A stretch of DNA of 64,000 nt from Gemmatimonadaceae bacterium. GTDB taxonomy: Bacteria > Gemmatimonadota > Gemmatimonadetes > Gemmatimonadales > Gemmatimonadaceae. Where the stretch lies: the NCBI GenBank assembly GCA_030647905.1, contig JAUSJA010000008.1:124001-188000 (forward strand). Reading direction: 5' to 3'. A model generated the notes under the pieces. It did not search any database and was not told the origin of the DNA. It saw only the letters and a list, made by a program, of their open reading frames with translations. The translations under genes were made by a program, and so were the position numbers. Within the stretch, counting starts at the first letter, position 1. Each line of letters begins with the position of its first letter. Positions 22,609 to 54,822 of the stretch are shown here, one piece after another.

Positions 22609-22649
22609 AGGGGCATTAGCACTCTCCATGCGTGAGTGCTAATGCCCCT
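22609..22649 (+). promoter_or_regulatory. CIRCE operator (HrcA binding site)
   Basis: A perfect CIRCE consensus, TTAGCACTC-N9-GAGTGCTAA, lies at 22616-22642. The symmetry extends seven more bases on each side, giving 16-bp perfect arms at 22609-22624 and 22634-22649 around a 9-nt spacer. HrcA binds this element and represses groESL until heat or misfolded protein titrates GroEL. No hrcA gene is in the window. Confidence 0.97.
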
Positions 22650-22987: not shown

Positions 22988-24649
<1,662 letters not shown>

Positions 24650-24672: not shown

Positions 24673-24705
24673 GACGGGGTCGCGAAAGCGGCCCCGTCTT
24701 TTTTT
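24673..24705 (+). terminator. Rho-independent terminator of groES-groEL
   Basis: An 11-bp stem with one G-T pair (24673-24683 with 24688-24698) and a GAAA tetraloop is followed by seven T residues. This is a textbook intrinsic terminator. Confidence 0.95.
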
Positions 24706-40380: not shown

Positions 40381-41685
40381 ATGCCCGCTGTCCAATATAT
40401 CGTAGAGGGAGGGCGCACCCTCCACGGCACCATCCGCCCTTCGGGGAACAAGAACGCAGCACTTCCGATCGTCGCCGCCGCGCTGATCTCGGACAAACCC
40501 GTCCACCTCGAGAATGTCCCGCACATCCGCGACATCGAGACGCTGATGGAGCTCATCGCCTCCGTCGGAGCATCGGTCCAGTGGACCGGCGACAACTCAC
40601 TGCGAATCGAAGCGAAGGAGCTCACCGCTCGGGACCTCGACGCCGGACTGTGCGCCAAGATCCGCGCATCCATCCTCCTCGCCGCACCGCTGCTCGTGCG
40701 CTGCGGCGAGATCATTCTCCCACCCCCCGGCGGCGACGTGATCGGACGACGGCGGCTCGACACGCATTTCCTCGCTCTCGAGCAGCTCGGCGCCAAGGTC
40801 ACGCTCGGGGAAGGCCTGCTCCGGCTGTCGGTAAAGGAATTCCGTGGCGCCGATGTGTTCCTCGACGAGCCAAGCGTTACGGCGACCGAGAATGCCCTCG
40901 TCGCCGCCTGCGCCGCCTCGGGCAGAACGATCCTGCGCAATGCCGCGAGCGAGCCGCACGTTCAGGATCTCGCGAACTTTCTCCGCGCGCTCGGCGCCGA
41001 GATCAGCGGCGTCGGAACCAACTGCATCACCATCGAGGGAGGGCGGCCGCTCGGGAAGACCGAGGTCACGCACAGGATCGGTCCCGATCACATCGAGGTC
41101 GGCTCGTTCATCGGTCTCGCCGCTGTGACTCGTTCCGAGCTGCGCATCGAGCAGGCGGGGATCGAGCACCTGCGCTCCACGCGCATGGGATTCGAACGGC
41201 TCGGCATCGTCTGCGAGGTGGACGGCGACGATCTGATTGTTCCCGCGAAGCAGACACTCAAGATTCAGGCGGACATGGGCGACCACGTGCCGAAGCTGGA
41301 AGACCAGCCATGGCCGGCTTTCCCGGCCGACACCATGTCCATCGCGATTGTCACGGCGACGCAGTGCGAAGGGTTGATCATGATGCACGAGAAGATGTTC
41401 GAGTCCCGGCTCTTCTTCGTTGACAAGCTCATTGCGATGGGCGCGAGGATCGTGCTGTGCGATCCGCATCGCGCGCTCGTGTCCGGCCCTTCGCGGCTTC
41501 GCGGCGCCACTCTCGACTCTCCCGACATCAGAGCCGGCATGGCGCTGCTCATCGCCGCTCTCTGCGCGGAAGGGAAGAGCGTGATTAACAACGTCGGTCA
41601 GATCGAGCGCGGCTACGAACGGATCGATCATCGTCTGCGTGCGCTCGGCGCGTCCGTCGAGCGCGTCGCCGACCGGCGCAAGTGA
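40381..41685 (+). CDS. murA: UDP-N-acetylglucosamine 1-carboxyvinyltransferase, Cys-to-Asp form
   Basis: MurA transfers enolpyruvate from PEP to UDP-GlcNAc, the first committed peptidoglycan step. The 434-residue protein has catalytic Lys in RPSGNKNAALPIVAAAL and FPADTMSIAIV near the second-domain Asp. The active-site loop reads PPGGDVIGRRRLD, so the Cys115 of E. coli is D119 here (codon 40735-40737). Cys-to-Asp at this site is the known basis of natural fosfomycin resistance in mycobacteria and chlamydiae. The ATG at 40381 is preferred; 40372 is an alternative. Confidence 0.95.
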   Translation: MPAVQYIVEGGRTLHGTIRPSGNKNAALPIVAAALISDKPVHLENVPHIRDIETLMELIASVGASVQWTGDNSLRIEAKELTARDLDAGLCAKIRASILLAAPLLVRCGEIILPPPGGDVIGRRRLDTHFLALEQLGAKVTLGEGLLRLSVKEFRGADVFLDEPSVTATENALVAACAASGRTILRNAASEPHVQDLANFLRALGAEISGVGTNCITIEGGRPLGKTEVTHRIGPDHIEVGSFIGLAAVTRSELRIEQAGIEHLRSTRMGFERLGIVCEVDGDDLIVPAKQTLKIQADMGDHVPKLEDQPWPAFPADTMSIAIVTATQCEGLIMMHEKMFESRLFFVDKLIAMGARIVLCDPHRALVSGPSRLRGATLDSPDIRAGMALLIAALCAEGKSVINNVGQIERGYERIDHRLRALGASVERVADRRK

Positions 41686-41728
41686 GGGGCGGTCCACGAC
41701 AGGCATTGAATCACCAGGCGGTGCGCCG

Positions 41729-42445
41729 ATGACGGCCGCCCCCGGATCCATTCCGCGACAGGACGTTGCTGAATTCGCGGGGTTCGGCATCGGCGCGTTC
41801 ACGACGACGCGTGATGCGGGAACGTTCAGCTTTTCGGGCCCCGATCCCGTCGGCGAAGTCATGGCGCGATGGACCGGACTGCAGGAGGAGCTGAGCGCCC
41901 AGGCCCGCCGCATGGTGATCGGAAGACAGGTGCAAGGCTCGAACGTGCTCACCCACCGCGGAGGATGGGAAGGACTTCTCCGCACGGGAGAGGCGGACGG
42001 GCACCTCGCGGCGGAGCGGGGAATCGTGCTCACAGTCTCCGTCGCCGACTGCGTTCCGATTTTCATCGCCCACCCGAGCGGGATAGTCGCCCTTCTCCAT
42101 TCCGGCTGGCGCGGCACGGTCGCACGGATCATTGACGCCGGCATCAGCGCCTACGCGCGTCTCGGCATGCCCCCCGACGAGCTGAAAGTCCACCTCGGAC
42201 CGGCGATCTGCGGCCGGTGCTACGAAGTGAGCGCCGAAGTAAGGGCACAGTTCACCGGCCAGCCCGTCAATCGTCCCGGCAAGGTGGACATCCGCTCACT
42301 CATCGCCGAGCACGCGAGGGAAATCGGCGTAACCGACGTGAGCGTGAGCTCCGACTGTACCCGCTGCGACAACGACCGATACTTCTCGCACCGTGCGGGC
42401 GACACCGGCAGGCAACTAGGGGTGATCGTAGCCGGGCTCTGGTAG
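41729..42445 (+). CDS. pgeF: Peptidoglycan editing factor PgeF (laccase-domain protein)
   Basis: The 238-residue YfiH/DUF152 protein has metal-ligand and catalytic residues in VADCVPIFI, HSGWRGTVARII and GPAICGRCYEV, with SSDCTRCDNDRYFSHR near the end. Family members remove mis-incorporated residues from peptidoglycan precursors, and also show purine nucleosidase/adenosine deaminase activity. Its position beside murA agrees with a cell-wall role. The ATG at 41729 gives a standard N-terminus 43 nt after murA. Confidence 0.88.
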   Translation: MTAAPGSIPRQDVAEFAGFGIGAFTTTRDAGTFSFSGPDPVGEVMARWTGLQEELSAQARRMVIGRQVQGSNVLTHRGGWEGLLRTGEADGHLAAERGIVLTVSVADCVPIFIAHPSGIVALLHSGWRGTVARIIDAGISAYARLGMPPDELKVHLGPAICGRCYEVSAEVRAQFTGQPVNRPGKVDIRSLIAEHAREIGVTDVSVSSDCTRCDNDRYFSHRAGDTGRQLGVIVAGLW

Positions 42446-42470
42446 GATGATCGCGCTCGCCCTCATCGCC

Positions 42471-42499
42471 TTGACTCTATAAGTAGCGAGGCCTAGATT
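42471..42499 (+). promoter_or_regulatory. Promoter of the rimP-nusA-infB operon
   Basis: TTGACT (42471-42476) and TAGATT (42494-42499) are 17 bp apart. Transcription would begin near 42506, giving a leader of about 80 nt that contains the hairpin at 42535-42560. Confidence 0.7.
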
Positions 42500-42534
42500 G
42501 CCATGAGTCGCGCGACGATCGCCGCGGACGGAAA

Positions 42535-42560
42535 TGTGGGGATGCCCCCCACATTTTTTT
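42535..42560 (+). terminator. Intrinsic terminator/attenuator in the rimP leader
   Basis: A 7-bp stem (42535-42541 with 42547-42553) and 5-nt loop are followed by seven T residues. It lies between the putative promoter and the rimP ATG, so it may attenuate the nusA-infB operon; terminating readthrough from pgeF is the other possible role. It also argues against rimP starting upstream at 42503. Confidence 0.8.
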
Positions 42561-42586
42561 GTTTCGTGAAGGTGGCTCGAAAGAAC

Positions 42587-43066
42587 ATGAGCGAAGCGCC
42601 ACAAGACATTGTCGTTTCAGAACTTGCCCCGCTTGGACTGGAGCTTTTTGAACTCCGGACTGGGGGCACGAAAAACCGGCCTGTCCTCGATGTTCGCATC
42701 GAGCGAAAGGACGGCGAGAAGATCACTGTTGACGATTGCGCACGGGCATCACGCGCGATCGAGGCGAAGCTGGATGCGGGGAACGCCGTGGGCACGAGAT
42801 ATGTCCTCGAGGTCTCCTCGCCCGGGGTCGAAAGACCTCTCCGGAATGCCGCCGACTGGGGGAAGTTCGTGGGCCGCGATGCGGTTGTCACGACTGACTC
42901 CATCGAAGGCGCCGCGGGACTGAGCTCGAAAGAGGTTCGCATTGCCAGGGTCGAAGGGGATCCGGGCGCAGAAATTGTCATTGTCGAAGACGCGTCGGGC
43001 GCTGCCCATCGTGTTCCGCTTGCCGCGGTCAGAAAGGCGCGGCTGGCATTCAACTGGAAAAGGTAA
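42587..43066 (+). CDS. rimP: Ribosome maturation factor RimP
   Basis: RimP assists 30S subunit assembly. The 159-residue protein matches in LAPLGLELFELRTGG, RPVLDVRIERKDGEKITVDDC and YVLEVSSPGVERPLR, with the C-terminal SH3-like domain after residue 85. The frame extends upstream to 42503 through the terminator hairpin, so the ATG at 42587 is preferred. Shine-Dalgarno signals are weak. It heads the rimP-nusA-infB-rbfA-truB-ribF operon. Confidence 0.93.
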   Translation: MSEAPQDIVVSELAPLGLELFELRTGGTKNRPVLDVRIERKDGEKITVDDCARASRAIEAKLDAGNAVGTRYVLEVSSPGVERPLRNAADWGKFVGRDAVVTTDSIEGAAGLSSKEVRIARVEGDPGAEIVIVEDASGAAHRVPLAAVRKARLAFNWKR

Positions 43067-43075
43067 GGAGCGGGG

Positions 43076-44575
43076 ATGGCCGGTTCACTTGAAATCCTGA
43101 CTGCAATCAGGGAGCTGACGAACACGAAGCAGCTCGACCGCACGGAGCTGCATGGTCTGCTGTTCGACGGCATCACAGCCGCACTCGCGAAGAAACACGG
43201 CCCGACGGTTCAGGCCGAAGTGGATATCGACGAGGACAAGGGCACGATCAGAATCGTGCGCCTTCGCACTGTCGTTGCCGAGGTCACCGATCCGGCTCGC
43301 GAGGTCTCGCTCGAAGAGGCGCGCTTCGAAGACCCGGAGTTCCAGGTCGGCGACGTTCTCGAGAATCCCGTCGATTTCGCCGAGTTCGGACGCATGGCCG
43401 TGCTCGCCGCCAAGCAGCGCATCATCCAGCGCGTGAGGGAAGGCGAGCGGACCAAGATCCGCGACGAGTTCACGAGCCGCGTCGGTGATCTCCTGTCGGG
43501 CGAAGTACAGCAGATCGAGCGCGGCAAGCTCGTCATCATGCTGAACAAGTTCCGAGAGGCGGAAGCGGTGATCCCGTACCGCGAGCAGAACCATCGCGAG
43601 CATTTCCATCAGGGTGATCCGCTGCGCGCCGTGCTCAAGCGCGTCGAGGAGACTCCTAAGGGACCGCGCCTCATGCTGAGCCGCGGCGACCCGATGTTTG
43701 TCAAGGCGCTGTTCAAGCTCGAGGTTCCTGAGATCCAGCAAGGCATCGTCGAGATTCGCGCTGCGGCGCGCGAGGTCGGCAATCGCACCAAGATCGCGGT
43801 CTTCTCACGCGACGACTCGGTAGATCCGGTGGGCGCGTGCGTCGGCCTCAAGGGCTCGCGCGTGCAGGCCGTCGTCAACGAGCTGGGCGGTGAGAGAATC
43901 GACATCGTGCCGTGGTCCGCGGATCCCGAGCGCTTCGCCAAGCTGGCGCTCGCGCCGGCTCGCGTTGCGCGCGTGTTCAGCGACGCCGCGACGAAGACGA
44001 TTCAGGCAGTGGTGGACGAGGATCAGCTTTCGCTCGCGATCGGCCGCAACGGTCAGAATGTGCGACTGGCGTCCGAGCTCACCGAGTGGAAGATCGAGCT
44101 CTACTCGAGCCGCGAGTGGATGGAGCGCGGCTCCGAACAGCAGCTCTTTGCGCCGCTTCCGGGCGAGGGCGAAGAGAACGTCAACCCGCGCCTCTCCGAG
44201 ATCGAAGGTCTCGAGCCGGCTACGGTTGCCGTCCTCGAGGAGGCGGGTTACCGCACGCTCGACGACATCATTGATCTCGAGCGCGAGGACTTCCTGCGTC
44301 TTGCCGGTATTGCGCCCGAGGAGGCCGATCGGCTGATGACGATCATCAACGAGCTGACGACGGAGGATGGTGGCGGCGAAGAGGTGAGCGACGCTGTGGC
44401 GGCGGAGATTCCGGAGCCGCCTCAGGCCGACTCCGATACCCCGGCCGCGAGCGCAACGGTCGGCAGTGACGGTGGAGCGGGAGACGCGACGAACGCCACC
44501 GACGGAGAGTCGGGCGCCAAGTCCGATGCCGCTTCCGCGCCGCGCAGCAAGCGCGGAGAGAAAAAGGGCGAATGA
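43076..44575 (+). CDS. nusA: Transcription termination/antitermination factor NusA
   Basis: NusA binds RNA polymerase and controls pausing, termination and antitermination. The 499-residue product has the N-terminal polymerase-binding domain, an S1 domain near residues 135-200, KH1/KH2 domains (DPVGACVGLKGSRVQAVVNE, then LSLAIGRNGQNVRLASELT), one helix-hairpin-helix region (LSEIEGLEPATVAVLEEAGY) and a low-complexity acidic tail ending KRGEKKGE. It starts 9 nt after rimP and overlaps the L7Ae-like gene by 4 nt. NusA could act on the leader hairpin upstream. Confidence 0.96.
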   Translation: MAGSLEILTAIRELTNTKQLDRTELHGLLFDGITAALAKKHGPTVQAEVDIDEDKGTIRIVRLRTVVAEVTDPAREVSLEEARFEDPEFQVGDVLENPVDFAEFGRMAVLAAKQRIIQRVREGERTKIRDEFTSRVGDLLSGEVQQIERGKLVIMLNKFREAEAVIPYREQNHREHFHQGDPLRAVLKRVEETPKGPRLMLSRGDPMFVKALFKLEVPEIQQGIVEIRAAAREVGNRTKIAVFSRDDSVDPVGACVGLKGSRVQAVVNELGGERIDIVPWSADPERFAKLALAPARVARVFSDAATKTIQAVVDEDQLSLAIGRNGQNVRLASELTEWKIELYSSREWMERGSEQQLFAPLPGEGEENVNPRLSEIEGLEPATVAVLEEAGYRTLDDIIDLEREDFLRLAGIAPEEADRLMTIINELTTEDGGGEEVSDAVAAEIPEPPQADSDTPAASATVGSDGGAGDATNATDGESGAKSDAASAPRSKRGEKKGE

Positions 44576-44958
44576 CGGACGACGTCGCCAAGCGGAAAGT
44601 GCTGGGCCTCGTAGGTCTGGGACTCCGCGGGCGGCATGCCGTTGTTGGAGTACAGCAGGTGAGGGATGCGGCGAAACGGGGCAAGCTCAAAGTTGCGCTT
44701 GTGGCGAGCGACGCATCGCAGAATAGTTTGGACAAGGTTTCGGGACTGCTCGTCGCGCGCGGCGTGCCGGTGATCGGAGAGTTGTCTGCTTCCGAGCTCG
44801 GCGGCGTGGCCGGACGCGAGGCGGTCGCAGTGATCGGAGTTACGAATGCGGGACTGGCCAGAGGAATCGTTACCGCGATTCCACCGGTCGGAGAAATCGC
44901 TGGTGAAAGTGGCAAGCGGGCGGCTCGACCATCGGGCCGTCGGGATTCAAGGAGGTAG
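44572..44958 (+). CDS. L7Ae/L30e-family ribosomal protein (YlxQ-like)
   Basis: A 128-residue protein with an L7Ae/L30e/Gadd45 RNA-binding core (RHAVVGVQQVRDAAKRGKLK, ALVASDASQNSLDKV, VIGELSASELGGVAGREAV). Family members bind kink-turn RNA. In Firmicutes the YlxQ protein holds this place between nusA and infB, usually with the DUF448 protein YlxR, which is absent here. The C-terminus has a basic tail (GKRAARPSGRRDSRR). Its stop lies 4 nt upstream of the infB TTG. Confidence 0.85.
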   Translation: MTDDVAKRKVLGLVGLGLRGRHAVVGVQQVRDAAKRGKLKVALVASDASQNSLDKVSGLLVARGVPVIGELSASELGGVAGREAVAVIGVTNAGLARGIVTAIPPVGEIAGESGKRAARPSGRRDSRR

Positions 44959-44962
44959 TGTT

Positions 44963-47722
44963 TTGAGCAAGCTTCTCGTGAACGACCTGGCGGGCGAGTT
45001 CGGGATATCAGTCGATGAGGTGATCAACCTCCTTCGACAGATGGATGTCCCCTTTCGCAGCCATATGACACCGCTCTCGGACGACCAGGTCGCCCGCATC
45101 AGAGCCCGGTGGGAGCGCGAGAAGAGAGTCCGGGCCACCACCCCTGCCGCCGCTCCCGCGCGTCGCCGTCGAGGTACCGCCGCTGTCGAAGCGCCGGCAC
45201 CCGCTCCCGAGCCGGCTCCGGAGACAGCCGCAGGACGCCGCCGCCGCCGCGCCGCTGACGCCGCTCCCGCTCCTGTCGAGCCGGAGACTTCTGCCGTCGC
45301 CGATGTAAGCGCGGAGCCGGTACCAGCGCCGCGTCGTCGCGCGGCCGCACCTGCCCCCGAGGCTGTGGCTCAGGCCGAGCCGTCCGCAGAGCCTTCGGAG
45401 CAGGCCGCCCCTCGCGCCGCACCCGCACCCGCGCCGGCCTCGGCTGTCTCCGATGTCTCCGATGTCTCCGATGTCTCTGAGGCGCCCACTCCGCGCGCCG
45501 CCGCCCCGCAGGGGGCGCCGCCAGCGTCTCCGGGCGCATCCGCGCCGCCAGCTCAGTCCACTGCGCCGAGCGCTCCGGCTGCGCTTGATCGTCAGCGTCC
45601 GCGGCCGATCGTTCCTGGCGCACCGCGTCCTCGCCCAGTCGCGACGGGCACGCCGTTCACTCCGCCTCGTCCGGTCGCGTCCGCGGCCCCGGGAGCAGGC
45701 GCCGGATTCCCCGGTGCCCGCCGCGATGACCGCCCGCGTCCGGGTGGCGACGATCGCGCACGCCGCGGCAAGAAGGGCAAGCGCGGCTCGGTGGATCAGG
45801 AAGCGGTGTCATCGAGCATCTCGAAGACGATGACCGCGCTACGGGGCACAGCGCCCCGCCGGGGCGGACCCCGCCGTGCCGACGATGCAAGCTATCGCGA
45901 GGAGATGGAAGCGCAGCGCGTGGCAGCCGTCGAGCGCGAGAAGAAGACGGTACACGTCAACGAGTTCATCACGGTCAGCGAGCTCGCCGGCATCCTCAAG
46001 ATCCCCGCGACGCAGATCGTCGGATTCGCGTTCAAGAATCTCGGCTTGATGGTCACGATCAACCAGCGACTCGACTTCGATCAGATCGAGCTCATCGCCG
46101 GCGAGTTCGGATTCCAGGCAGTGAAGGAAGAGGAGTACACCGCTGGCCTCGAGGAAGCCGTCGTCGTCGAGAACCCCGAGGATCTCGAGCCGCGTCCGCC
46201 CGTCGTGACGATCATGGGTCACGTCGATCACGGAAAGACCTCGCTTCTCGATTACATCCGCAAGGCGAACGTCGTCGCCGGCGAGTCAGGCGGAATCACG
46301 CAGCACATCGGCGCGTATCACGTCACGCTGCCGTCCGACAAGCACATCACCTTCCTCGACACGCCGGGCCACGAAGCGTTCACGGCCATGCGCGCGCGCG
46401 GCGCCCAGGTCACGGACATCGTCGTGCTCATGGTCGCCGCCGACGATCAGGTGATGCCTCAGACGATCGAAGCGATCTCGCACGCCAGGAACGCCGGTGT
46501 GCCGATGATCGTCGCGATCAACAAGATCGATCTTCCCTCCGCCAATCCCGGAAAAGTGAAGCAGGATCTTCTCCAGCACGGCGTCGTGCTCGAGGAGTTC
46601 GGCGGCACCACTCTCTCCAGCGAGATCTCGGCGAAGAAGGGAACAGGCGTGGACTCCCTGCTCGAGCAGATTCTGCTGCAGGCGGAGATTCTCGATCTCA
46701 AGGCCAACCCGAACCGCCGCGCTGTCGGCGCCGTCATCGAAGCGCAGCTCGATCCCGGCAAAGGACCTGTCGCCACGGTGCTCGTCTCCGCCGGAACGCT
46801 GCATGTCGGCGACGACTTCATCTGCGGCATGTACTCGGGTCGCGTTCGCGCGCTGCTCGATGAGCGCGGCAAGGCGCTTAAGTCCGCTGGCCCCGCGATC
46901 CCCGTGCAGATTCTCGGAATAGGCGGCGTGCCGATGGCCGGAGACCAGTTCGTGGTGGTCGAGGATGCGATGGAGTCGCGCGAGATCGCGCAAACTCGCC
47001 AGCGGCTCGACCGCGAGGCCAAGAGCCGCCGCACGTCCAAGAGCATCGTATCGCTCGAGGACTTCATGAACGCCGCAGCGGCGGGCGAGAAGCGCACACT
47101 GCGCGTGGTCATCAAGGCGGACCAGGGCGGCCCGGCGGAAGCGCTCGCCGACGCCCTCGCACAGCTGTCGCATGATGAAGTCTCGGTGGACGTCATCCAC
47201 CGCGGCGTCGGCTCGATCACGGAGAGCGACATCCTGCTCGCGCGCGCATCCGGCGCGATCATCGTCGGGTTCCATGTGCGTCCCGACAACAACGCCCGCG
47301 CCGCCGCCGAGCGCGAAGGCGTGGACATCAAGCTGTACAAGGTCATCTACGAAGCGGTCGAGGACGTTCGCGCCGCGCTCGAGGGAATGCTCAAGCCCGA
47401 GGAGCGCGAAGTGGTGCTCGGCGAGGCGGAAGTGCGGGAGACGTTCAAGGTTCCGCGCATCGGGCTCATCGCCGGGTGCTCGGTTCGCAGCGGGCTGATC
47501 AACCGCCAGGCGCGCGCCCGCGTGATCCGCGACGGCGTGGAGGTGTACGACGGGAACATCGGCTCACTCCGCCGTTTCAAGGACGACGTCAAGGAAGTGC
47601 GCGAAGGATTCGAGTGCGGTATCGGTATCGAGAACTTCAACGACATCAAGGTGGGCGACGTCATCGAGTGCTATCGCAAGGAGCAGGTTGCGCGCACCCT
47701 GGCGTCGACTGCCTCTGCGTAA
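44963..47722 (+). CDS. infB: Translation initiation factor IF-2
   Basis: IF-2 is the GTPase that places fMet-tRNA on the ribosome. The 919-residue protein has an N-terminal helical domain starting [20 protein letters not shown], a long Ala/Pro/Arg-rich linker (about residues 55-300), G1 GHVDHGKT near residue 420, then G-domain motifs DTPGHEAF and INKIDLP, followed by domains II-IV. The frame is open upstream, but AAGGAGG just before the TTG at 44963 fixes the start. A tandem repeat in the linker encodes [11 protein letters not shown]. Confidence 0.96.
45445..45480 (+). repeat. 9-bp tandem repeat in the infB linker
   Basis: Four copies of a 9-bp unit (the last with one mismatch) encode SDV repeats in the variable linker of IF-2. 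Identical codons in three copies suggest recent slippage. Confidence 0.85.
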
Positions 47723-48131
47723 TAATCGTCGCGCGGACCGTGTGGCCGAGGCGGTCCGCGAGGAGATAGCGACGTTCCTCGCCGAGTCAGTAAAGGATCC
47801 CCGCATCGTCGGCTTCGTGACGGTGACGGGAGTTGACATCACTCCCGACCTGCGTCACGCGAAGGTTTTCGTGAGCGTGATGGGAAGCGACACCGAAAAG
47901 GAAGCGACCTTCGCCGGGCTCGCGAGCACGGCGTCCCACCTTCGCTCGCGCGTCGGCCGGGCACTCCGGCTCCGCGTCGCGCCCGAGATCAACTTCCGCG
48001 AAGACGACAGCGTCGCGCGGGCAGCGCGCATCGAGTCGCTGCTCGCGGGGATCAAGGCGGGGTCGCCGCAGGCGCCCGCTCCGGCCGAACCTTCTTCGCC
48101 AGCCTCCTCAGGCGAAGACACGGACGACTGA
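47688..48131 (+). CDS. rbfA: Ribosome-binding factor A
   Basis: RbfA helps mature the 16S rRNA 5' end during 30S assembly. The family core is clear: RRADRVAEAVREEIATFLAE, DPRIVGFVTVTGVDITPDLRHAKVFVSVMG (in overlapping parts) and RLRVAPEINFREDDSVARA. The start is uncertain. TTG 47688 has AAGGAG about 4 nt upstream and overlaps infB by 35 nt; the ATG-less N-terminus would also fit a CTG at 47715. The C-terminus is a short Pro/Ser/Asp tail. truB follows after 10 nt. Confidence 0.9.
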   Translation: MRAPWRRLPLRNNRRADRVAEAVREEIATFLAESVKDPRIVGFVTVTGVDITPDLRHAKVFVSVMGSDTEKEATFAGLASTASHLRSRVGRALRLRVAPEINFREDDSVARAARIESLLAGIKAGSPQAPAPAEPSSPASSGEDTDD

Positions 48132-48141
48132 GGGCGCGCGA

Positions 48142-48831
48142 GTGTCGGCGCGCCCTGAAGGACTCCTGCTGGTGGACAAGCCCGCAGGCATCACGTCCCA
48201 CGATGTCGTGCAGTTCGTCCGCCGCGTGTATGGTGAGCGCAGCATAGGCCACCTCGGGACCCTCGATCCGTTCGCCACGGGTCTTCTCGTTCTGCTCATC
48301 GGACGGTCGACGAGACTCTCGACGTTCATCGTGACGGACCCGAAGGTCTACGATGCAACGATCCGGTTCGGCGCCGAGACGGATACCGACGACTGTACGG
48401 GAGCCGTGATTCGCGAGGCCGCAGCTCCAGCCCTCAACACGGTCGCAAGCGCGATTCCATCTTTCACAGGCGACATCCTCCAGGTGCCGCCGGCCTACTC
48501 CGCCAAGTCGGTGGACGGCACGCGCGCGTATGATGCAGCGCGGCAGGGTGAACCACTCGATCTTCCTCCTGTACGCGTGCGCGTGGACGGGTGGACGATC
48601 GTTGCCGCGCGCCCAACGGAGATTGACGTCACGATAACTTGCGGCACCGGCACATATATCCGCGCACTGGCCCGCGATCTCGGCCGCTCGACGGGCAGTG
48701 CGGCCCATCTCTCCGCGCTGCGCAGGGCGAGGAGCGGCCCGTTCGATGTGAGCGACGCTGTGACGATGGATCAGCTGCGAGTTGCTCCACCTCCGCTCAG
48801 AGCATTGACCGTGATAGCCTCGCATGGCTGA
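48142..48831 (+). CDS. truB: tRNA pseudouridine(55) synthase
   Basis: TruB makes pseudouridine 55 in the T loop of tRNAs. The 229-residue protein has GLLLVDKPAGITSHDVVQFV and catalytic D42 in GHLGTLDPFATGLL, plus PPAYSAKSVDGTRAYDAAR and GTGTYIRALARDLG. It is shorter than the roughly 310-residue E. coli form and appears to lack the C-terminal PUA domain. The GTG start follows rbfA by 10 nt, and ribF overlaps it by 8 nt. Confidence 0.94.
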   Translation: MSARPEGLLLVDKPAGITSHDVVQFVRRVYGERSIGHLGTLDPFATGLLVLLIGRSTRLSTFIVTDPKVYDATIRFGAETDTDDCTGAVIREAAAPALNTVASAIPSFTGDILQVPPAYSAKSVDGTRAYDAARQGEPLDLPPVRVRVDGWTIVAARPTEIDVTITCGTGTYIRALARDLGRSTGSAAHLSALRRARSGPFDVSDAVTMDQLRVAPPPLRALTVIASHG

Positions 48832-54721: not shown

Positions 54722-54725
54722 GCAT

Positions 54726-54822
54726 GGGGGTGGATGGGGCCTGGTGGCTTCCCCAGTCTTCAAAACTGGTGTGACCCGACTTCGTCGGGCCGGGTGGGTT
54801 CGATTCCCACACTCTCCCGCCA
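54726..54822 (+). tRNA. selC: tRNA-Sec (anticodon TCA)
   Basis: The selenocysteine tRNA starts 4 nt after the selD stop. The anticodon stem CCAGT/ACTGG encloses the loop with TCA at 54760-54762. The long variable arm has a 6-bp stem, and the T arm is GTGGG-TTCGATT-CCCAC. A 6-bp D stem with 4-nt loop, 8-nt acceptor 3' strand, discriminator G and encoded CCA fit tRNA-Sec. The 8-bp acceptor as aligned has two mismatches, so its 5' boundary may be slightly off. Confidence 0.92.

Follow-up and report, generated by a model that had tools for sequence, protein, structure and literature searches.

A probable rimP-leader attenuator of the rimP-nusA-infB operon is conserved before rimP in sampled Gemmatimonadota

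Introduction

An intrinsic terminator placed between a promoter and the first gene of an operon may control the operon behind it, or might simply end the transcripts of the gene in front. This question is raised by a hairpin that precedes rimP in the window, by which we mean the whole stretch of 64,000 nucleotides of DNA from a Gemmatimonadaceae bacterium that was analysed here. An earlier note on this DNA had proposed that the hairpin attenuates the nusA-infB operon, possibly as an autoregulatory loop closed by NusA, the product of the operon's second gene. The primary paper on autoregulation of NusA by leader attenuation in B. subtilis is reportedly that of Mondal et al. 2016. To the extent covered by the portions of the sources available, the rimP-leader of Naville and Gautheret 2010 was proposed to be a NusA feedback attenuator (PMC2965389), NusA autoregulation by leader termination in B. 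subtilis is stated in a review (PMC12288461), NusA feedback has been described for E. coli (PMC6511841), and in the leader of the S. agalactiae gbs0413-gbs0418 operon termination was mapped 31 nt after the start site, before rimP, with NusA feedback being suggested (PMC4448216). We put at roughly 0.7 the probability that promoter, terminator and rimP, in an order that is conserved, constitute a rimP-leader attenuator of the rimP-nusA-infB-rbfA-truB operon with NusA feedback as its likeliest control. Taken separately, that the element is an attenuator seems very probable from its sequence and conservation, while a role for NusA as the regulator here is somewhat favored by analogy.

Results

The order of the genes around the hairpin, pgeF-rimP-nusA-L7Ae-like-infB-rbfA-truB, was confirmed by Pfam, and the individual genes are as follows.

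41729..42445, plus strand: pgeF (Cu-oxidase_4 / laccase-like), the upstream gene; PF02578, E 6.6e-47; its stop lies 25 nt before the promoter
42587..43066, plus strand: rimP, first gene of the operon; PF02576 RimP_N, E 7.1e-18
43076..44575, plus strand: nusA, the proposed feedback regulator; NusA_N, E 8.8e-32, and KH_5, E 9e-29
44572..44958, plus strand: gene for an L7Ae-family protein; PF01248, E 3.6e-6
44846..47722, plus strand: open frame of infB (IF-2), with an approximate start; PF11987, E 4.5e-38, on 44957-47719
47688..48131, plus strand: rbfA; PF02033, E 3.3e-33
48142..48831, plus strand: truB; PF01509, E 7.8e-45

Between the pgeF stop (42445) and rimP there are 141 nt of intergenic sequence, which hold three elements.

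42471-42499, plus strand: sigma70-like promoter TTGACT-17-TAGATT, from a consensus scan
42507..42529, plus strand: possible small 5' hairpin before the terminator, from folding
42532..42560, plus strand: predicted intrinsic-terminator hairpin AAATGTGGGG-ATGCC-CCCCACATTT with its T tract (candidate rimP-leader attenuator)

The promoter, the 7-bp hairpin with seven T residues (42535-42560) and the rimP ATG at 42587 were all found as the earlier note had described them. This promoter is the only promoter-like site across 41000-44000 on both strands, where shuffled sequences average 0.1; from its position, transcription would be expected to start at ~42505-42507, and the end of its -10 element is 36 nt from the hairpin. 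The hairpin core consists of TGTGGGG (42535-42541), the loop ATGCC and CCCCACA (42547-42553), followed by T7 (42554-42560). Three extra A-U pairs are possible between 42532-42534 and 42554-42556, and folding gives a stem of 12 pairs once the A-U and G-U extension is counted. With 5 G-C pairs, an energy of ~-14.5 kcal/mol and T7, the terminator looks strong by sequence, a strength which does not in itself indicate factor dependence, and it ends 26 nt before the rimP start. A simple scan of 41000-44000 returned four terminator-like sites versus 1.1 expected, the other three being on the minus strand, and a strict filter that demands a stem of 9 or more with 5 or more G-C pairs yields 0.05 sites per strand by chance, as estimated from 20 dinucleotide shuffles of the window. 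An extended rimP that would begin at the in-frame ATG at 42503 and run through the hairpin (42503-43066, 187 aa) was rejected, as it is not kept in relatives when these are inspected by eye.

Further strong terminators found in the window (24673-24698, 7391-7367 and 63016-62990) have stems unrelated to that of the rimP hairpin. When 265,913 bases of the same genome were surveyed for terminators, 11 intergenic ones emerged, two of them attenuator-like in position, at L233:10465-10486 and at 22610; because the gene caller began rimP at 42503, this survey omits the rimP hairpin and provides a picture of the other terminators only. The site at 22610-22648 is an inverted repeat, TTAGCACTC-N9-GAGTGCTAA, which we take to be CIRCE-like and which is immediately followed by two frames, one groES-like (22655) and one groEL-like (23012-24649); the terminator at 24673-24698 is a separate one that follows the latter frame. 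Elsewhere in the window, a selenocysteine tRNA gene was identified at 54724-54822 with ARAGORN and Rfam.

RimP was sought in 298 Gemmatimonadota genomes and matched in 265, and 110 rimP loci were examined: 30 from the window's own family, the window included, and 80 picked to spread over families, so that the sample covers eight families (f1-f7 and f9; f8, f10 and f11 were left out). Orientation by tblastn gave 109 loci, after removal of L001, which duplicates L002, and of L087, for which tblastn returned no match. Conservation near rimP in relatives, on which the earlier note had made its proposal depend, was indeed found: a terminator finder blind to the motif placed a hairpin with a T tract before rimP in 107 of the 109 oriented loci, which are related, so that such counts are not independent events, and by eye all 107 of these hairpins carry a GGG..CCC core. 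In L087 the hairpin was seen by eye, which brings the total to 108/110. The motif-blind finder returned no hairpin before rimP in L100, and in L078 the 5' arm and the promoter are missing, with pgeF running into the hairpin's remaining 3' half as a result of either a deletion or an assembly error. Some of the comparisons below use the 106 loci that matched our search pattern, thus excluding L078, L089 and L100 (of these, L089 does carry the hairpin according to the motif-blind finder), and others the 91 leaders left after 15 short ones were removed. All 106 loci have a T run of 6-9. Across loci, the hairpin begins ~4-75 nt downstream of where transcription is expected to start, and 0 to ~100 nt separate it from rimP, whose start was extrapolated from the match to the protein.

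Support for a selected RNA hairpin came from comparing the stem arms in the 50 distinct arm pairs present among the 106 loci, which had been picked with a pattern that restricts the core letters but leaves pairing free at positions 2 and 5. Core positions are complementary in 50/50 arm pairs: G-C is unvarying at positions 0, 3 and 4; position 1 is U-A, U-G or C-G; position 2 is G-C except for a single C-G; and position 5 has G-C in 40 and C-G in 10. The two-sided changes between G-C and C-G at pairs 2 and 5, which preserve pairing, are what one would expect if the hairpin is under selection as RNA. Outside the core restricted by the pattern, the arms are complementary in 41/50, 42/50 and 44/50 at positions -1, -2 and -3, respectively. 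The invariant GGG..CCC suggests that something beyond pairing is being kept, and could reflect any binding protein. The loop was also considered as a recognition site, since GAAGTTC is common to some f1 and f2 loci, yet 57 distinct loops occur among the 106 loci, and because of this variety we make no claim for it.

Within the 3.1-Mb genome from which the window comes, GTGGGGN{3,9}CCCCRCN{0,3}TTTTT has a single match, located at rimP. The same pattern was found in 88/99 genomes of the family and is absent from 11/99, while a reversed control pattern had no match in family genomes, among the matches listed. Wherever the matches listed include both the site and RimP (48 genomes), the site is 51-121 nt before the RimP match and on the same strand (48/48). 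One genome (G018) has a second site that is not at rimP, and another (G307) carries the rimP-type hairpin twice, in differing copies, on contigs C75 and C81, perhaps owing to a mixed assembly. The variant GCGGGC..GCCCGC-T6 occurs, counted at whatever place in the genome, in 42/151 genomes of the order and not in the window's own genome (0 matches).

The earlier note had also allowed that the hairpin might only end pgeF transcripts, with the real promoter of the operon downstream or elsewhere. A terminator in this position would act on pgeF transcripts too, pgeF being the same-strand upstream neighbor in 94/109 loci. However, a sigma70-type promoter that scores at p<=0.05 against dinucleotide shuffles stands upstream of the hairpin, between it and pgeF, in 103/106 loci (67/70 same-family, 17/17 order-level and 19/19 class-level), and promoter scores of at least 8 are seen upstream of the hairpin in 100/106 loci versus 1/106 downstream, where the search space is smaller. 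A far-upstream control, read by count because its mean is distorted by a placeholder used where a candidate is absent, gave 0 loci with a score of at least 8. The distance from the -10 element to the hairpin has medians of 37, 12 and 43 nt in same-family, order-level and class-level loci (range 10-82), and in the 70 same-family loci, measured from the end of the -10 element, the median of 37 comes with a range of 28-68. Furthermore, of the 15 loci whose fetched stretch shows no pgeF match, 14 keep the hairpin, which is still present in L103, L109 and L110, where the end of pgeF is 373, 423 and 897 nt from rimP. As it persists without a nearby pgeF, the hairpin is not merely a pgeF terminator, and these promoter and neighbor counts indicate that it travels with rimP and its promoter rather than with pgeF. 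The reading that confines it to pgeF transcripts is contradicted by these data and we consider it very unlikely; the attenuation reading is supported by them, in that the order promoter-terminator-rimP appears to be conserved in the sampled phylum independently of pgeF.

Loci of the f2 family show this arrangement in a compact form. Their hairpin is GCGGGC..GCCCGC in 15/18 loci and lies ~5 nt from where transcription is expected to start, a site which in six loci is 34-37 nt from the ATG. In 13/18 loci (L072-L077, L079-L084 and L088) only 0-3 nt lie between the end of the T tract, a T8, and the rimP ATG, and a Shine-Dalgarno sequence has therefore no room there; neither is there space for a promoter downstream of the hairpin, a further point against the pgeF-only reading. 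It is conceivable, even if we regard it as speculative, that in f2 the promoter is fused with the attenuator and the start codon (hairpin at ~+5, U8, AUG at ~+35) into one element that sets both termination and translation start, with NusA and the initiating ribosome competing on the same 35 nt, and that the window element is its unfused relative. The same geometry, with a hairpin so close to the expected start and a T8 that abuts or nearly abuts the ATG, could also be taken to mean that the hairpin chiefly shields the mRNA at its 5' end or, together with the T tract, presents the ribosome-binding site, and causes no termination. Such an explanation we find hardly credible, as the T tract stays beside the stem while the distance to the gene varies from 0 to ~100 nt, a constant adjacency which fits termination better than a role in translation.

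Additional structures were seen in a few leaders. In 6/106 loci (L092, L094, L095, L096, L099 and L111) the main hairpin is directly preceded by another that is GC-rich and has a T-rich tail, the two resembling tandem terminators, and a second stem-loop, GGGG..CGTCGC..GCGG..CCCC, was seen by eye between attenuator and rimP in L094-L097, L101, L102 and L104. The small 5' hairpin that may precede the terminator is weakly supported, with a mean z of -1.17 versus dinucleotide shuffles in the 91 leaders.

A base-paired antiterminator is not supported by our analysis of the same leaders. The longest complement to the 5' arm averages 5.67 nt versus 5.57 nt in shuffled leaders, and that to the 3' arm 4.03 versus 4.01 nt, without enrichment in either case (n=91); complements to the 5' arm of at least 6 nt, with G-U allowed, do occur in 45/91 leaders, no more than the shuffling average. 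With arm pairing at the shuffled level, a classical antiterminator of this kind is unlikely, and action of a protein or termination at a fixed efficiency remain as explanations. In 85/106 loci, the T tract is interrupted by G or A and continues with TT or TC (GTT in 59, ATT in 13, GTC in 13), and 9 further loci of the 106 read ATG at this place, which is the start codon.

In order to look beyond Gemmatimonadota, GTGGGGN{3,9}CCCCACN{0,2}TTTTTT was scanned for in a collection of 84,980 species genomes, which returned at least 117 stretches. Of the 117 matches listed, 31 have rimP or nusA nearby on the strand of the match, namely 19 in Gemmatimonadota (including Roseisolibacter), 9 in Chlorobiaceae, 1 in Nitrospirae and 2 in Planctomycetota. 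GTGGGG..CCCCAC-T6 thus precedes rimP-nusA in at least nine Chlorobiaceae and at least one Nitrospirae. On the two Planctomycetota contigs, L163 and L185, the hairpin is 3 and 84 nt before the extrapolated start of nusA, and rimP can therefore not fit in between. The other 86/117 matches listed are elsewhere, or were not tied to rimP or nusA by tblastn with the window proteins, so that in other phyla this stem is not exclusive to the operon.

Discussion

By those features that can be tested in sequence, the window element would belong with the rimP-leader of Naville and Gautheret. As described in the available portion of that paper (PMC2965389), both are intrinsic terminators before rimP in a rimP-nusA-infB operon, share a GGG..CCC stem core with a T stretch, and have no visible antiterminator, as none was enriched in the 91 Gemmatimonadota leaders. 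The terminators of the rimP-leader set are 4-130 nt from the gene start, a range which includes the 26 nt of the window, whereas 13/18 f2 loci, at 0-3 nt, fall below it (PMC2965389). There is also a difference in the fourth pair of the stem: the published core is GGGc(...)gCCC (PMC2965389), while in Gemmatimonadota this pair is mostly G-C, with GGGG..CCCC in 40/50 arm pairs, the window included, and the GGGC..GCCC form in 10/50. The leader of the E. coli K-12 metY-rimP-nusA-infB operon has, by eye, GGGC-TTTAG-GCCC-T7 before rimP. The Rfam model for rimP (RF01770, 102 positions) gave 0 matches in the window's own genome and no match up to E 10 in 42300-42800, and among 14 control genomes it matches E. 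coli alone. Matches to Bp1_162, skipping-rope and sraA, all of them below the gathering scores, were rejected as identities. We found no description of a rimP-leader in Gemmatimonadota in the open-access literature, the supplementary species lists of 2010 aside. On the whole, we appear to be dealing with a self-limiting switch of a type already known.

If the attenuation reading is correct, RNA polymerase would start at ~42506 and synthesize a leader of ~55 nt that ends in the intrinsic terminator; part of the polymerases would halt at the T tract, and the remainder would pass on to transcribe rimP and the genes that follow. Plentiful NusA would increase pausing and hairpin completion and in this way lower expression of its own operon, while scarce NusA would allow read-through to rise. 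Both the use of the promoter and termination at 42471-42560 are predicted from sequence, and our search of the literature returned no start-site, 3'-end or expression data for Gemmatimonadota. In the S. agalactiae operon, which likewise has RimP, NusA, IF2 and RbfA behind a predicted intrinsic terminator, termination is instead measured by RNA-seq, at least according to the part of the report available; the leader predicted in the window is longer than the 31 nt seen there, and the f2 leaders, with 34-37 nt from start to ATG, come closer (PMC4448216). In B. subtilis, an intrinsic terminator in the leader controls transcription into nusA, as we propose for the window, with the difference that in B. 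subtilis dependence on NusA is reported, as far as the review text goes (PMC12288461), and in the window it is a prediction.

It could be argued that the terminator is a constitutive throttle, which at a fixed efficiency sets the basal level of the operon and insulates it from read-through without any feedback. The complementarity of the leader to either arm, which equals that of shuffled leaders, would agree with this, as would a hairpin energy that averages -16.2 kcal/mol in the 70 same-family loci. A throttle, however, does not need a GGG..CCC core that is invariant across lineages and phyla, since a weaker promoter would suffice, and NusA feedback is reported for both B. subtilis (PMC12288461) and E. 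coli (PMC2965389 and PMC6511841) in the portions of these papers available. For these reasons we consider a throttle of this kind possible but unlikely.

Alternatively, the attenuator might respond to another factor, such as RimP, cold-shock protein antiterminators, NusG, or the operon's L7Ae-like protein. Feedback by RimP is named as possible by Naville and Gautheret 2010 in the text available (PMC2965389), and a study of cold stress in E. coli (PMC6511841) cites Bae et al. 2000 for the proposal of antitermination by the CspA family; the northern blots of that study, in the part available, were nonetheless inconsistent with Csp antitermination. The A-U base of the stem and the interrupted T tract resemble features of NusA-dependent as well as of NusG-dependent terminators of B. 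subtilis, going by the available text of PMC8060035. We judge control by any of these other factors to be rather improbable. Based on the literature on NusA feedback for the rimP-leader, B. subtilis, E. coli and S. agalactiae, NusA-stimulated termination would be the likeliest mode of control at this locus.

The feedback loop predicted here on NusA, IF2 and ribosome-assembly factors would be extended by our results to a little-studied phylum. In addition, the range of geometries seen among these loci, with the hairpin ~4-75 nt past the start and 0 to ~100 nt before the gene, may offer a natural series for the study of how NusA acts on terminators that lie near promoters.
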